This document shows, piece after piece, positions 6,579-12,442 of a stretch of 24,789 nucleotides of DNA. A model generated the notes under the pieces. That model saw only the letters and a program-made list of their open reading frames with translations. It was not told the origin of the DNA and did not search any database. Within the stretch, counting starts at the first letter, position 1. Each line of letters opens with the position of its first letter. A program made the translations under genes and the position numbers. The stretch is taken from positions 1 to 24,789 of the IMG/VR virus record IMGVR_UViG_3300043640_000155; one strand, 5' to 3'. This DNA comes from a virus.

Positions 6579-6926
6579 ATGGCTGGTCAGGGACCGATTG
6601 AGCGAGCGTTCGCCGAGTCGATCAAGATCGCGCCGGTTGCCGGGCAGGACGTCGCGGGGGCTGCTCTGGCTCGCCGGTACGCCCAGTTGCTGGACGGTGT
6701 TCGCGGTGCGGAGACCGAGGCCGAGGTGTACCGGGATCTGGGTCCGAAGTTTCAGGCTGTCCTGACCGCTCTGGGTCTGACCCTGGCCGGTCGGGCCCCG
6801 GTGACGAAGGGAGGAGGTGTTTCTGGTGGTACTCCAGCTGGCACAGCCCTCGACGCTCTCCGAGCAGAGCATGGGTCCGGTGCTCGGGCGAACCGAGGCG
6901 CGAATCTTCACGCCGTCTCTGACTGA
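6579..6926 (+). CDS. Terminase small subunit
   Basis: A 115-residue protein. The core LARRYAQLLDGV ... YRDLGPKFQAVLTALGLTLAGR (residues ~30-75) matches the pattern of small terminase subunits in actinobacterial siphophages, followed by a Gly-rich stretch and a short Arg/Ala-rich tail (LDALRAEHG). The small subunit recognises the packaging site and regulates the large subunit. ATG 6579 has no clear Shine-Dalgarno sequence. The last ~100 bases overlap the start of the large subunit in another frame, and the ribosome site for that gene (GGGAGGAGG) lies within this one. The assignment rests on sequence pattern and position. Confidence 0.75.
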   Translation: MAGQGPIERAFAESIKIAPVAGQDVAGAALARRYAQLLDGVRGAETEAEVYRDLGPKFQAVLTALGLTLAGRAPVTKGGGVSGGTPAGTALDALRAEHGSGARANRGANLHAVSD

Positions 6927-8367
6927 GCTGAGTCCGGCGACCAGCTACGGGTACGCCGTGATCGACTTTGCCCGTGACGTGCTGGGTGAGCCGCTGGACC
7001 CGTGGCAGGAGTGGGCCGTCATCCATGCCGGTGAGCTGTTGCGGGATGGCCGGCCGCGGTTCCGGCACGTCCTGGTACTCGTCGCAAGGCAGAACGGTAA
7101 AACGCACTTATTGAAGGTGCTTGCCCTGTTTTGGTTGTTCGTCGAACAGTGGCCCCTGATCCTCGGGACATCGACGAACCTCGATTATGCTCGAGAGTCC
7201 TGGGACAAAGCTGTGGAGTTGGCCGAGTCCAGCGAGATCCTGGCCGAGCTGGTGCCGCGCAATGGTGTCCGCCGGGCCAACGGCGAGCAGACCCTGAAGA
7301 CCGTGGACGGGTGCCGGTACAAAATCGCGGCCAGCAACCGCCGCGGTGGCCGGTCGCTCTCGATTGACCGCCTCATCCAAGACGAGCTACGCGAACACCC
7401 GGACTGGCAAGCGTGGAACGCCGCGACGAAGGCGATGAACGCCCGCCCGTTCGGGCAGTCCTTCAGCTTGTCGAACATGGGCGATGAGGCGTCCGTGGTG
7501 CTCAACTCGCTGCGGAAGTCCGCGCTGGCCTACATCCAGACCGGCGCCGGTGACCGCAGAGTCGGGCTGTTCGAGTGGTCCGCACCGCCGGACTGCGACC
7601 CAATGGACACCGACGCCTGGGCCAGCGCGAACCCGAACCTGGGCCGACGGCTCGACCACGACACCATCGCCGGTGATGCCGTCCGGGCCATCGAGGCAGG
7701 CGGCGAGGAACTGACCGGTTTTCGGACCGAGGTTCTGTGTCAACTGGTGCCGGTCCTTGATGCCGCGGTCGACCCGCGCGCCTGGGAGGCGTGCCACGTC
7801 CCGGGCGACCTGTCCGGGCTCCGGTCGCGCGTCGCCATGTGTCTGGACGTGTCGCCGGACCGGGCACACTGCACGCTGGCCGCCGCAGCGACGCTTCCCG
7901 ATGGTCGGGTGCGGGTTGAGGTTCTGGCCGCCTGGAGTGGCGTACAGGCCACCGCCGAGCTTCGCCGGGACCTGCCCGGCTGGGTCAAGAAGGTCAAGCC
8001 GCAGGTGCTGGGCTGGTTCCCTGCCGGCCCGGCTGCCGCCCTGGCCGCCGAGTTGGCCGCGAAGAAGGGCCGCGCGGGTTGGCCGCCGCCGGGCGTCACC
8101 GTCGACGAGCTACGCGCGGAGGTCACCGCGGTCTGCATGGGCTTCGCCGAGCAGGTGGCCGCCAGCCAGGTGGTGCACAACGATGACCCGTTGCTGAACG
8201 CCCACGTGACCGGCGCTGAGCGGCTGCGCTCCGGCGACACCTGGCGCTTCTCTCGGAAGGGCGGAGGGCACGCCGATGCCGCGTATGCCGCCGCCGGTGC
8301 CGCGCACCTCGCCAGAACCCTGCCGGCGCCGATCGGCAAGCCGAGGATCGTGGTGGCCGCCGACTAG
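6826..8367 (+). CDS. Terminase large subunit
   Basis: A 513-residue HK97-type packaging motor. The ATPase half has the Walker A-like VARQNGKT (86-93) and Walker B with the catalytic acid in LIQDELREH (D186-E187). The nuclease half has CLDVSPDR (D341) and a late acidic motif GHADAAYA near the C-terminus, as in RNase H-like terminase nucleases. It cuts concatemers and drives DNA into the prohead through the portal encoded next. The start chosen is GTG 6826, about 8 bases after the strong ribosome site GGGAGGAGG (6810-6817); GTG 6817 overlaps that site and is less likely. It overlaps the small subunit by ~100 bases. Length and order are normal. Confidence 0.93.
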   Translation: MVLQLAQPSTLSEQSMGPVLGRTEARIFTPSLTELSPATSYGYAVIDFARDVLGEPLDPWQEWAVIHAGELLRDGRPRFRHVLVLVARQNGKTHLLKVLALFWLFVEQWPLILGTSTNLDYARESWDKAVELAESSEILAELVPRNGVRRANGEQTLKTVDGCRYKIAASNRRGGRSLSIDRLIQDELREHPDWQAWNAATKAMNARPFGQSFSLSNMGDEASVVLNSLRKSALAYIQTGAGDRRVGLFEWSAPPDCDPMDTDAWASANPNLGRRLDHDTIAGDAVRAIEAGGEELTGFRTEVLCQLVPVLDAAVDPRAWEACHVPGDLSGLRSRVAMCLDVSPDRAHCTLAAAATLPDGRVRVEVLAAWSGVQATAELRRDLPGWVKKVKPQVLGWFPAGPAAALAAELAAKKGRAGWPPPGVTVDELRAEVTAVCMGFAEQVAASQVVHNDDPLLNAHVTGAERLRSGDTWRFSRKGGGHADAAYAAAGAAHLARTLPAPIGKPRIVVAAD

Positions 8368-8368
8368 C

Positions 8369-8430
8369 CGTCTGCACGGCAGACGATCTGCGGTAGAGAC
8401 GATCTGTCGTACAGACGGTATGCTCGGCAT
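8369..8430. promoter_or_regulatory. 16-bp tandem repeats with inverted repeats and a leaderless-type -10 before the portal gene
   Basis: The 63-base gap after the terminase holds three tandem 16-bp units starting at 8381, 8397 and 8413. The first two read AGACGATCTG then YSGTAS; the third is diverged (AGACGGTATGCT). It also holds two perfect inverted repeats: CGTCTGC-ACG-GCAGACG (8369-8385) and TCTGT-CGT-ACAGA (8403-8415), the latter with the GT-N3-AC core seen in GntR-type operators. In the third unit TATGCT (8419-8424) lies 6 bases before ATG 8431, the arrangement of actinobacterial leaderless promoters. No good -35 is visible. A regulated internal promoter is the best reading. Confidence 0.5.
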
Positions 8431-11400
8431 ATGGGTTTCTGGCGTACGGCTGGGCGGCGGCTGTTCCGCTTCTCCGGCGAGTCGTCCGAGTCCGAACCGA
8501 TGCCCATCGACAGGTTGGTCTACCTGATCAACGGCGGCGGAGAGTTCCCCGTGGCCAACCGGGCCGAGGCCCTGACCGTCACCAGCGTGCTGCGCGGCCG
8601 GAACCTCATCTGCTCGATCGCGACGCTGCCGCTGGTGCAGTACAGCCCGGATCGACTTCGGTCGCCGCTGTCGCTGCTGACCCAGATCGATCCGAACGTG
8701 GCCAACTCGGTGACCATCGCGGAGACCGTGGAAGACCTGCTCTTCGAGGGCACATCCTGGTGGGAGATCACCCAGTTCGGTGCTGACGGCTACCCGGTCA
8801 ACGCGACTCACCGGGCCCCGTCGTCGGTGTCGCTGCTGCCCCCGGGTACCAACCGGTCGCCGGCGCCGTTGCCGTCCGGGTTGGACCCGTGGCAAGCGTC
8901 GGTGTGGGTTGACGGCCACGAGGTGTCGACCCTGTCGATGATCAGGTTCGACTCGCCGAACCCGCCGTTGTTGAAGTCCGCCGGCCGGGCTGTGCGCCAG
9001 GCCGTGATGTTGGACCGCATGGCGACGATGTACTCCGAGAACCCCAGACCACTCGATTACTTTTCGCCGTCCGACCCGACCAGCGACCCGGTCGACGACG
9101 ACTCGGTCGCGGAGATCCTGCGGAACTGGAACGAGTCGCGCCGCAAGCGCAGCACCGCGTACGTTCCGGCCGCCCTGCGGTACAACGTCGTCGATACGCC
9201 GACTCCGGCGGACCTCCAACTCGTCGAGCTGCAAAAGCGCGCCGACCTGGCCATCGCCAACGCGCTGGGCCTGGACCCGGAAGACCTCGGCGTCTCCACC
9301 ACGTCCCGAACGTACGCCAACGACGTGGACCGCCGGCAGGACCGGGTCAACGACACCTTGGCGCCCTATATGAAGGCCATCACCGACCGACTGTCGATGG
9401 CCGACGTCACCAAGCGGGGCTACTGCGTTGAGTTCGACCTCGACGACTACCTGCGGGCCGACCCGGTCGCCCGGTGGGGGACGTACCAGACCGCGTGGGA
9501 CATGGGCGCGATGACCATCGAGGAAATCCGGGTTAAGGAAGGGCTTTCGATCAAGCCGGCGCCCGGGATGGGAACGCTGAAGGCTCCGACCCCGCCGCCA
9601 GCCATCGAGGCCGCACCAGCCGACCCCGCAGCCACCGACCCGGGTCAGCCGACAGAGGGACAGCGTGTCCCTCAGCCCGTTGCCGCGTCCGGCGCACCCG
9701 AGGTGACCCTGGCCGCTGATACCGAGCTGTTCGAGGCCGATGTACCGGTCGAGCGGTTCGCGGCCAGCGCCGAGAAGCGGGTCATCAGCGGCCTGGCCCT
9801 GCCCTACGGCCGGGTGGCCGTCAAGAACGGCCGCCGCTTCCGGTTCCTGCCCGGCTCCATCGAATGGTCCGAGCTGTCCCGCGTGAAGCTGCTGCGCGAC
9901 CACGACTTCAGCCAGGCAATCGGCCGGGCTATCGACATCCAAGACACCGACGGCGGGTTGCAGGTCACCTTCAAGGTGGCGCGCGGCCCGGACGGTGACA
10001 AGGCGCTGGCCCTGGCCGAGGACGGCGTAACAGACGGGTTCTCCGTCGGCGTGGACATCCTCGACGCCGTCCCGGATCCGAACAACCGCGGCGTGATGCT
10101 CGTTCGCCGCGCGCTTCTCAGCGAGGTGTCGCTACTCGCGATGCCCGCTTTCGACGATGCCCGGGTGACACACGTTGCCGCGAGCCGTGACGGAGGAAAA
10201 TCGATGGACCCCGAGGACACCACGGCTGAGGGCACCGAGGGTGCCGACCAGCCAACCGAGGAGGCCGCGGGTGGCGTCACGCTCTCCCGCGAGCAGCTCA
10301 CGACCCTGCTGGAGCACCCCGGCGCGCTCGCGGCGCTGAGCGGTTCGCTCACCCCGGCTACTCCGGCGACGCCCGCAGGCGCGCTGACCCTGTCCCGTGA
10401 GCAGCTCGACGCGCTGATCGCCAACGGTGGTCTGGGTGCGCTGCTCGGCATGCCGAACCTGGCCGCGCCGCGCCAGCAGCCCGAGCAGCGCCAGGCGGTC
10501 AACCCGATCCGCCGGACCGCGCAGACCGCTGTCGCCGAGGAGGCTCCGTACCGGTTCGACCGGCGCGGCAACCTGACCCGGGGCTCGCGGTACGACTTCT
10601 CCTCCGACGTCATCGCCGGGCTGCGCGACGGCGACACCGAGGCGATCGAGCGGGCGCAGACGTTCATGCGGGCCCAGTTCGACACCGACATGGCAGACGC
10701 CGCGACGCTGAACCCGAACATCAACCGCCCTGACCTGTACGTCGACCAGAAGGAGTTCGCGTACCCGATCTGGGACGCCATCAACAAGGGCACCATCGCG
10801 GACGCCACCCCGTTCGTGCTGCCGAAGTTCTCGTCGTCGTCCGGCCTGGTCGCCGCGCACACCGAGGCCACCGAGCCCACCGCCGGGTCGTTCACCGCGA
10901 CGTCGCAGACGATCACCCCGTCGGCCGTGTCGGGCAAGGTGTCGATCACCCGGGAGGCGTGGGACCAGGGTGGCAACCCGCAGCTGTCCGGGCTGATCTG
11001 GACCCAGATGGTCCGAGGCTGGTTCGAGGCTCTGGAAGCCGCCGCGGTGGCCGCGCTCAACGCGCTCACCCCGACCGGTATCACCCTGACCGCCGGTGCG
11101 GTGAACGCCGCCCTGGTTGGCCAACTGGAAGGCGAGTTGGCCGCGCTCCAGTTCGTTCGCGGCGGGATGCGGATGCGGGACTTCTTCATCCAGGTCGACC
11201 TGTACAAGGCGCTGATCGGGGCTGTGGACGGCGACGGCCGCAAGCTGCTGCCGATGATCGGCCCGGTCAACGCCAACGGCCAGACGTCCGAGTTCTTCGC
11301 CGACGTGATGATCGGCGGGCTGCGGGGCCGCCCCGAGTGGGCCCTGGCCGCGACCGGTTCGGTGGCCGCATCCAGCTACCTGTTCGACCGGGCGTCCATG

Positions 11401-11544
11401 TCCGGCTGGGCGACCGCGCCGCAGCGCCTCACGTTCCAGGACGTTGAGGTCCGCTACGTGCACCTCGGCATCTGGGGCTACAAGGCCTTGGCCAACACGG
11501 ACCTGACCGGTGTCCGTGAAGTCATCTATGACCCGGCGGCGTGA
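8431..11544 (+). CDS. Portal-protease-major capsid fusion polyprotein
   Basis: One uninterrupted 1037-codon frame covers three head functions. Residues ~20-385 are an HK97-family portal (RGRNLICSIATLPLVQY, LEGTSWWEI-like LFEGTSWWEI, DLAIANALGLDPEDLGV). Residues ~386-445 are a Pro/Ala-rich linker. Residues ~446-585 are a U35/S78-type prohead protease (EKRVISGLALPYG, RDHD with H491, DGFSVG with S538, LLSEVSLLAMPAFDDARV). From M592 comes a delta-like N-arm and then an HK97-fold capsid protein. An internal ATG at 10204 with a GGAGG site allows separate capsid synthesis; the portal-protease joint has no comparable internal site. ATG 8431 has no Shine-Dalgarno but sits 6 bases after a -10-like TATGCT. 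The protease could release its own partners by cleavage. Domain calls are firm; the processing is inferred. Confidence 0.88.
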   Translation: MGFWRTAGRRLFRFSGESSESEPMPIDRLVYLINGGGEFPVANRAEALTVTSVLRGRNLICSIATLPLVQYSPDRLRSPLSLLTQIDPNVANSVTIAETVEDLLFEGTSWWEITQFGADGYPVNATHRAPSSVSLLPPGTNRSPAPLPSGLDPWQASVWVDGHEVSTLSMIRFDSPNPPLLKSAGRAVRQAVMLDRMATMYSENPRPLDYFSPSDPTSDPVDDDSVAEILRNWNESRRKRSTAYVPAALRYNVVDTPTPADLQLVELQKRADLAIANALGLDPEDLGVSTTSRTYANDVDRRQDRVNDTLAPYMKAITDRLSMADVTKRGYCVEFDLDDYLRADPVARWGTYQTAWDMGAMTIEEIRVKEGLSIKPAPGMGTLKAPTPPPAIEAAPADPAATDPGQPTEGQRVPQPVAASGAPEVTLAADTELFEADVPVERFAASAEKRVISGLALPYGRVAVKNGRRFRFLPGSIEWSELSRVKLLRDHDFSQAIGRAIDIQDTDGGLQVTFKVARGPDGDKALALAEDGVTDGFSVGVDILDAVPDPNNRGVMLVRRALLSEVSLLAMPAFDDARVTHVAASRDGGKSMDPEDTTAEGTEGADQPTEEAAGGVTLSREQLTTLLEHPGALAALSGSLTPATPATPAGALTLSREQLDALIANGGLGALLGMPNLAAPRQQPEQRQAVNPIRRTAQTAVAEEAPYRFDRRGNLTRGSRYDFSSDVIAGLRDGDTEAIERAQTFMRAQFDTDMADAATLNPNINRPDLYVDQKEFAYPIWDAINKGTIADATPFVLPKFSSSSGLVAAHTEATEPTAGSFTATSQTITPSAVSGKVSITREAWDQGGNPQLSGLIWTQMVRGWFEALEAAAVAALNALTPTGITLTAGAVNAALVGQLEGELAALQFVRGGMRMRDFFIQVDLYKALIGAVDGDGRKLLPMIGPVNANGQTSEFFADVMIGGLRGRPEWALAATGSVAASSYLFDRASMSGWATAPQRLTFQDVEVRYVHLGIWGYKALANTDLTGVREVIYDPAA
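9655..9673. repeat. Perfect 8-bp hairpin in the portal-protease linker
   Basis: GAGGGACA (9655-9662) and TGTCCCTC (9666-9673) are exact complements with a 3-base loop, in the stretch coding for the Pro/Ala-rich linker between portal and protease. It lies where an intergenic region would be in phages with separate genes, so it may be a relic of, or a pause site at, the old gene boundary. Confidence 0.5.
10192..10206 (+). promoter_or_regulatory. Internal ribosome-binding site for the capsid protein
   Basis: GGAGG (10192-10196), 7 bases ahead of an in-frame ATG (10204), lies exactly at the junction between the protease domain (ends VAASRDGGK) and the capsid N-arm (MDPEDTTAEG). Spacing and strength equal the best ribosome sites in the window. 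Confidence 0.7.
10204..11544 (+). CDS. Major capsid protein (nested, internal start)
   Basis: A 446-residue product predicted from the internal ATG, in frame with the larger fusion. Residues 1-~115 are a delta/scaffold-like arm, acidic then Ala/Leu rich, with a duplicated motif LTLSREQL (fusion residues 616-638 and 652-672). The HK97-fold core follows: YDFSSDVIAGL, PTAGSFTATSQTITPSAVSGK, VSITREAWDQGGNPQLSGLIW, LAALQFVRGGMRMRDFFIQ, GWATAPQRLTFQDV. A capsid needs hundreds of copies against twelve portal subunits, so separate initiation from the GGAGG site is expected. The delta arm would be removed by the protease domain encoded in the same frame. The fold call is firm; independent translation is inferred. 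Confidence 0.7.
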   Translation: MDPEDTTAEGTEGADQPTEEAAGGVTLSREQLTTLLEHPGALAALSGSLTPATPATPAGALTLSREQLDALIANGGLGALLGMPNLAAPRQQPEQRQAVNPIRRTAQTAVAEEAPYRFDRRGNLTRGSRYDFSSDVIAGLRDGDTEAIERAQTFMRAQFDTDMADAATLNPNINRPDLYVDQKEFAYPIWDAINKGTIADATPFVLPKFSSSSGLVAAHTEATEPTAGSFTATSQTITPSAVSGKVSITREAWDQGGNPQLSGLIWTQMVRGWFEALEAAAVAALNALTPTGITLTAGAVNAALVGQLEGELAALQFVRGGMRMRDFFIQVDLYKALIGAVDGDGRKLLPMIGPVNANGQTSEFFADVMIGGLRGRPEWALAATGSVAASSYLFDRASMSGWATAPQRLTFQDVEVRYVHLGIWGYKALANTDLTGVREVIYDPAA

Positions 11545-11545
11545 C

Positions 11546-11827
11546 ATGGCTGTGACTCGTAAAGACACCGCGGCACTGACCGGCACGGATCCAGCGACCG
11601 TGCCGGCGCCCGGCGCAGAGACCGATCCGGCGATCGCACCGGAGCCCGGCGCAGCGCCGGACCCGACGGCGGCACCGGTCGTGCCGTTCCTGTCCGAGGG
11701 CGTCCGGGGCGACCTGGCTGCCTGGGGCAAGGCCACCGATCCGGCCACCGGCGGCACGTTCGCCAGCGACCCGGACACCGCCAAGGTGACCTTCACCGAC
11801 CGGGCCGGCAACGTCACCGAGCTGTAA
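11546..11827 (+). CDS. Small hypothetical protein after the capsid gene
   Basis: A 93-residue protein with ATG 11546 one base after the capsid stop. The first ~50 residues are Pro/Ala/Thr rich and repetitive (PAPGAETDPA, PEPGAAPDPT), probably disordered. The end (PFLSEGVRGDLAAWGKATDPATGG, then VTFTDRAGNVTEL) is more conserved-looking. Small genes of this kind directly follow the capsid gene in many actinophages; a role in head completion or decoration is possible but unproven. Confidence 0.7.
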   Translation: MAVTRKDTAALTGTDPATVPAPGAETDPAIAPEPGAAPDPTAAPVVPFLSEGVRGDLAAWGKATDPATGGTFASDPDTAKVTFTDRAGNVTEL

Positions 11828-11848
11828 CGACGGGGGGAGGTGATCACG

Positions 11849-12442
11849 GTGGAGGCACGGACCAGCACGTCGGTGCTGTTGCCGGTCGGCGGTCTGTGGA
11901 CTGTCGAAGTGCGGGCCGAGAGTATGCCGACCATCGTGATCACCCCGCCGAACGGCACGCCCGGCGACCCGGTCGACATGGACCAGGTCGACGCGTACCG
12001 CAGCATCCCGTCAAGCTGGCGGTACCGCACCGAGACGACCCTGGCCACGCCCGGCCGGTACGTGGCCCACGTGGCCACCGACACGGACGCCCTCGATTTC
12101 GCCGTCTACGCGGCCGGCCCGACCAGCGGCACGGGGATGCCCGACGCGGACGCCCTGGCGCACTACATGCGCGACGGCGCGGCCAGCTGGGAACCCGAGG
12201 ACCTTACCGACGCGCTGGCCATCGAGGCGGCCGCTCAGCGGGCGCGCTGCCGTGTTGGAGCGGTGTACCCGGATGACTTGCGCGGCGCGCTGCTGCGCCG
12301 GGCCCAACGCAACCTCGCGATGCGCAACCTGCCACTGGCGATGCCACAGGGCGACGCCGACTCCGGCCCGTCGATCCTGCCCGGCAACGACCCGGAAGTC
12401 CGCCGGCTGGAAGCCCCGTACCGAAAGCTGGTGTTCGGGTGA
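11849..12442 (+). CDS. Head-tail connector protein (gp6-like)
   Basis: A 197-residue protein. The start GTG 11849 is about 8 bases after a strong GGGGGGAGG site (11832-11840); GTG 11840 overlaps that site. The N-terminal ~95 residues are beta-rich (SVLLPVGGLWTVEVRA, PTIVITPPNG, GRYVAHVATDTDALDFAVYA), like an immunoglobulin-type domain. Residues ~110-165 are a helical connector region (DALAIEAAAQRARCRV, DDLRGALLRRAQRNLAM) of the type that docks under the portal. It should form the first ring between portal and tail. The assignment rests on the helical pattern and place; the Ig-like front is an addition to the usual short form. Confidence 0.7.
   Translation: MEARTSTSVLLPVGGLWTVEVRAESMPTIVITPPNGTPGDPVDMDQVDAYRSIPSSWRYRTETTLATPGRYVAHVATDTDALDFAVYAAGPTSGTGMPDADALAHYMRDGAASWEPEDLTDALAIEAAAQRARCRVGAVYPDDLRGALLRRAQRNLAMRNLPLAMPQGDADSGPSILPGNDPEVRRLEAPYRKLVFG

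Follow-up and report, generated by a model that had tools for sequence, protein, structure and literature searches.

Genes in which a prohead protease, a scaffold segment and a major capsid protein are fused have been published for actinophages with small genomes (PMC5513430, PMC7302621), and the same papers describe portal–MuF and MuF–protease fusions of actinophages, which also combine two head functions but with different partners and no capsid protein joined. The word "internal" is absent from both papers, hence no internal start is described there. In the Arthrobacter AN, Microbacterium EE, Gordonia CW, and Rhodococcus RRH1 fusions, a single frame encodes the protease, the scaffold, and the HK97-fold capsid. 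A protease is likewise fused to the capsid protein in the capsid polyprotein of Pseudomonas phage PAJU2, although its portal gene is separate and lies downstream; of this polyprotein, a citing paper (PMC8306868) mentions autocatalytic cleavage alone. The PAJU2 sequence has a strong Shine–Dalgarno (SD) sequence and an ATG at codon 197, where a scaffold-like segment begins. Nested products of one frame are known from two further systems: lambda C/Nu3, in which a long product bearing the protease is accompanied by abundant short Nu3 made by an internal translation start, and herpesvirus UL26/UL26.5, in which UL26.5, the abundant short product of the 3' part of the same frame, has its own transcript. 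In both, the nested product consists of scaffold only; at the locus analyzed here it would also include the major capsid protein, and the portal is an additional part of the long product.

This locus occupies positions 8431–11544 of a stretch of viral DNA of 24,789 nucleotides, below called the window; the frame, its parts, and the terminase gene are on the + strand. It is a single open frame of 1037 codons plus stop, with the terminase large subunit gene (6817–8367) just 5' and tail genes 3'. Similar to the double fusions of small actinophages, it joins protease, scaffold, and capsid in one frame; these phages also have a compact genome, their portal and protease are approximately 28–40% identical to those of the window, and most of those checked share its internal SD-led start. 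However, these phages encode the portal in a gene of its own, often with a 4-nt overlap, while the portal of the window lies in the same frame.

The portal domain (aa 1–390, 8431–9600) matches Pfam family Phage_portal, PF04860, at aa 62–371 (E 2.2e-27; 96.5 bits, cut-off 39.1), and the protease domain (aa 444–574, 9760–10152) matches Peptidase_S78, PF04586, at aa 447–585 (E 1.6e-9; 38.6 bits, cut-off 21). PHROG 2263, "major head protein", matches aa 426–1031 (E 3.5e-47), spanning both the protease and the capsid parts. No matching family was found in Pfam for the capsid part, which was therefore tested by structure. The AlphaFold2 model of aa 592–1037 (mean pLDDT 75, 36 aligned sequences) matches, by Foldseek, the capsid proteins of HK97 (1ohg; E 5e-11, target-normalised TM 0.60) and Bxb1 (E 2e-11), as well as those of D3 and other HK97-fold capsids (E ~1e-10); the major capsid protein is placed at aa 691–1037 (10501–11541). 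The model of aa 1–591 (mean pLDDT 77) matches HK97-family portals (3kdr, E 1.8e-17; 8fql, E 4e-15), followed by a low-confidence linker at approximately aa 392–443 (9604–9759) and the beta-rich protease domain. The low-confidence linkers between the modelled domains are probably disordered. A scaffold (delta-like) segment is assigned to aa 592–690 (10204–10500), as it sits between the protease and the capsid fold.

The catalytic-type residues Ser538 (codon 10042–10044) and His491 (codon 9901–9903) are retained in 43/43 and 42/43 non-redundant relatives, respectively. By the family match and these conserved residues the protease is an S78 member, predicted to cleave the capsid precursor. A first-pass annotation had called the same three domains, naming H491 and S538, and had proposed structure prediction as a check; the profile matches, the relatives, and the portal and HK97 capsid folds of the models, with a beta-rich protease domain between them, bear out these calls.

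Third-position G+C is 0.83–0.97 along the whole frame, including both junctions, and dN/dS of both linkers between close relatives is 0.10–0.20, with few changes in the first linker; to judge from these sequences, both linkers are translated and under purifying selection. We also scanned viral contigs and bacterial genomes for portal/protease/capsid loci. Portal, protease, and capsid share one open frame in 36 loci (28 of them below 85% identity), while 24 relatives (15 below 85% identity) have a separate portal. The fused loci come from viral contigs and from prophages of Micromonospora, Asanoa, Amycolatopsis, Prauserella, and Jiangella. Among 301 sampled genomes of the family to which the carrier of locus L060 belongs, 19 have a relative and 12 have the triple fusion, which one of these carries twice. 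One bacterial genome (G001) harbors two different triple-fusion prophages, L089 and L103.

There is a negligible probability that the frame is an artefact of sequencing or assembly, or a prophage gene in decay. The window is a single contig, and one decayed relative carrying a stop (L097) does exist; however, dozens of contigs and genomes obtained independently have the same fusion as an open frame, which excludes a sequencing error and a stop or frameshift lost in assembly; in addition, the catalytic residues and the gene context are intact, and purifying selection is seen. The open frame reported by the first-pass annotation is thus real, and the search for other triple fusions that it recommended has yielded the loci above; as far as the sequences go, the triple fusion is a trait of a clade and not peculiar to this genome. 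The view that such a fusion is unusual holds in part: since the protease–scaffold–capsid portion has already been published, the novelty is confined to the attached portal. In the openly licensed literature searched, neither a triple portal–protease–capsid fusion nor an internal capsid start was described, which is no proof of absence.

On the portal+protease tree, four changes between the fused and separate states are required, three of them forced by well-supported branches; the changes are counted without a direction. L095, a portal-separate locus, falls within the group of fused loci closest to the window (support 99/91); at L025 (3793–6894) portal and protease–capsid share a frame with one TGA between them, a natural near-fusion. 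Together, these observations indicate that the portal/protease stop codon is labile. The portal stays separate in the sister lineages and is separate in all named outgroups; when named phages were compared with three triple-fusion queries, none matched over 80% coverage.

The portal–protease joint differs between clades. In the clade of the window, an SD-led start 5' of the protease is found in 3/23 loci, no commoner than the background of 12% per 40-codon stretch, while it is present in 5/5 loci of the Pseudonocardiaceae clade and 4/5 of the Jiangella group. This difference means that the fused set comprises two grades: in the first, each of the three proteins may still have its own start inside one frame; in the second, that of the clade of the window, portal and protease are, by their start signals, obligately joined. 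No strong SD-led in-frame candidate for a start of the protease's own, and none in the portal/protease linker, was found in the window. A GTG at 9665 was considered as the protease start and rejected, being out of frame.

The border between protease and scaffold is different. Here, the window has GACGGAGGAAAATCG-ATG, with the SD-like CGGAGG at 10191–10196, 7 nt 5' of the ATG (M592, 10204–10206). SD energies were obtained by our own scoring, as ViennaRNA duplexes with the anti-SD CACCUCCUUU, with a cut-off of ≤ −5.5 kcal/mol; in the scan for in-frame starts, best scorers deeper in the linker were ignored, since they had no recurrent position. An ATG or GTG with an SD lies 0–4 codons 3' of the protease in 41/43 non-redundant loci, a count that overstates independence, as the loci are related and do not represent 41 independent events; other five-codon stretches have a start with an SD in 4.7% of cases on average and 28% at most. 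The SD of L043 narrowly misses the cut-off, L067 has its internal start at 8 codons, and L004 and L005, near relatives of L002, have weaker SDs. All of the 11 non-redundant loci fetched later have an ATG 2–6 codons 3' of the protease, with SD energies from −4.7 to −11.7.

Relative to the reading frame, the SD is found in each of the three codon phases (7/22/14), and its flanking residues differ, which argues that a nucleotide signal is kept rather than a peptide motif. Compared with synonymous shuffles of these genes, the internal SDs are somewhat stronger (−8.6 observed vs. −7.7 mean; Wilcoxon p 0.002), the shuffle mean showing that the upstream amino acids already favor SD-like codons. Selection thus appears, from the sequences, to act on the nucleotide start signal. 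In 11/43 loci, e.g., L003 (5248), L060 (6723), and L062 (3469), the scaffold segment opens, directly at the internal Met, with a CxxC zinc-ribbon-like N-terminus, as a genuine protein start would. The portal-separate relatives retain the same internal start. An SD-led post-protease start is also present in the named double fusions VitulaEligans, Maggie, Coeur, Hadban, RRH1, Efeko, Berka, Adaia, Kels, PuffyCat, Nocturne116, Concrete, and PAJU2; among those checked, Emperor, SallySpecial, and EricDab show no clear start at the homologous place. An upstream candidate, M571 with the SD-like GAGGTGTC, also seen in some relatives, was rejected as a start: the sequence there codes for the protease's conserved EVSL..PAF motif, and peptide constraint explains the resemblance.

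A conserved SD-led start located exactly between protease and scaffold–capsid argues that the capsid protein is probably not made mainly within the triple protein. The locus would then belong with genes having nested in-frame starts: the SD and the start are found at the domain border, and the short product is predicted. The suggestion of the first-pass annotation that internal initiation may matter is borne out by this signal. Its statement that the protease is joined to both of its presumed substrates is true of the frame, but most of the capsid protein is probably made separately, from the internal start; cis self-processing is plausible for the predicted minor full-length product.

The alternative of a pure polyprotein, in which all capsid protein is synthesized full-length and then freed by the protease acting in cis or in trans, the SD-like sequence being incidental, agrees with the open frame, with translated and probably disordered linkers, and with a protease placed between its presumed substrates; cleavage of a protease–capsid fusion is also proposed for PAJU2 (PMC8306868). 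We nevertheless regard it as unlikely. It leaves unexplained why 41/43 and 11/11 loci have an SD and start precisely at the domain border, and why the same start is found in relatives whose portal is separate, and it would yield portal and capsid at 1:1, far from the ratio needed. A phage head contains 12 portal subunits and hundreds of capsid subunits. At 24/28 fused loci, the best SD near the portal start is weaker than the internal one (median −3.1 vs. −8.35, p 5e-5). Given the head composition and the weaker portal SD, the simplest reading is low synthesis of the full-length protein and high synthesis of scaffold–capsid. Initiation is predicted only imperfectly by SD strength, and leaderless or weak-SD starts are common in actinobacteria; a weak portal SD may therefore not mean weak portal synthesis.

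We consider it quite probable that scaffold–capsid is made mainly from the internal start, along with a rarer full-length portal–protease–scaffold–capsid precursor that is cut by the protease. In this reading, the gene serves head assembly in a small siphophage of actinobacteria, and the stop codon that would part the portal from protease–scaffold–capsid is absent. Initiation at the portal codon (8431), which has a weak SD, would provide the full-length precursor at a low level, and initiation at the SD-led ATG at 10204 would provide an abundant precursor of scaffold and capsid alone, restoring the ratio of portal to shell subunits, about 12 to several hundred. The S78 protease, being tied to the portal, would be delivered to the portal vertex, and would cut the linkers and the scaffold segment during maturation.

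The capsid excess might instead come from a separate transcript or from intragenic RNA processing, and not from internal initiation on the long mRNA. Here the internal start would be used either way, and its conservation fits this route as well; we give it a slightly lower probability still than the pure polyprotein. A simple scan of 8200–11900 for sigma-70-like promoters found none, which is weak evidence against a separate transcript, since actinobacterial promoters are poorly captured by such scans.

Initiation at 10204 on the long mRNA remains our preferred source of free scaffold–capsid, and the conserved internal start is the most useful and testable consequence of the triple fusion. This start signal within the fused gene probably allows the phage to produce far more shell protein than portal. 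It also alters the reading of genes annotated as "major capsid and protease fusion" in many cultured phages: by their sequences, most of them probably make a free capsid precursor from a start that is unannotated in the records. For HK97-like phages it has long been asked how one portal per head is ensured and by what route the protease gets into the head; a natural portal–protease–capsid fusion offers a direct handle on both questions. More tentatively, the full-length protein could be a functional assembly seed, twelve copies forming the portal ring and nucleating the head at one vertex, with protease and the first capsid subunits attached, while free scaffold–capsid builds the remainder; if true, this would be the tailed-phage counterpart of Gag/Gag-Pol dosing.

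Several minor observations concern neighboring sequences and relatives. In the window, three 12-nt repeats (CAGACGATCTGC, GAGACGATCTGT, and CAGACGGTATGC) with exact 16-nt spacing occupy 8380–8423, directly 5' of the start codon of the fused gene and sitting within a larger inverted repeat; they are possibly an operator or a leader element. Arthrobacter phage Adaia and L073 (OR067381, Pseudomonas phage Hadban) have near-identical portals and proteases, which is odd given that Hadban is recorded as a phage of Pseudomonas aeruginosa. At L009 (5562–7421; Gordonia phage Emperor), L079 (2945–4852), and L080 (4023–5501), approximately 115–130 extra residues precede the protease–capsid in frame, forming in Emperor a membrane-spanning, holin-like segment, and an AAAGGA-led ATG lies at the protease N-terminus; these loci are a further stop-less fusion, with a probable nested start.
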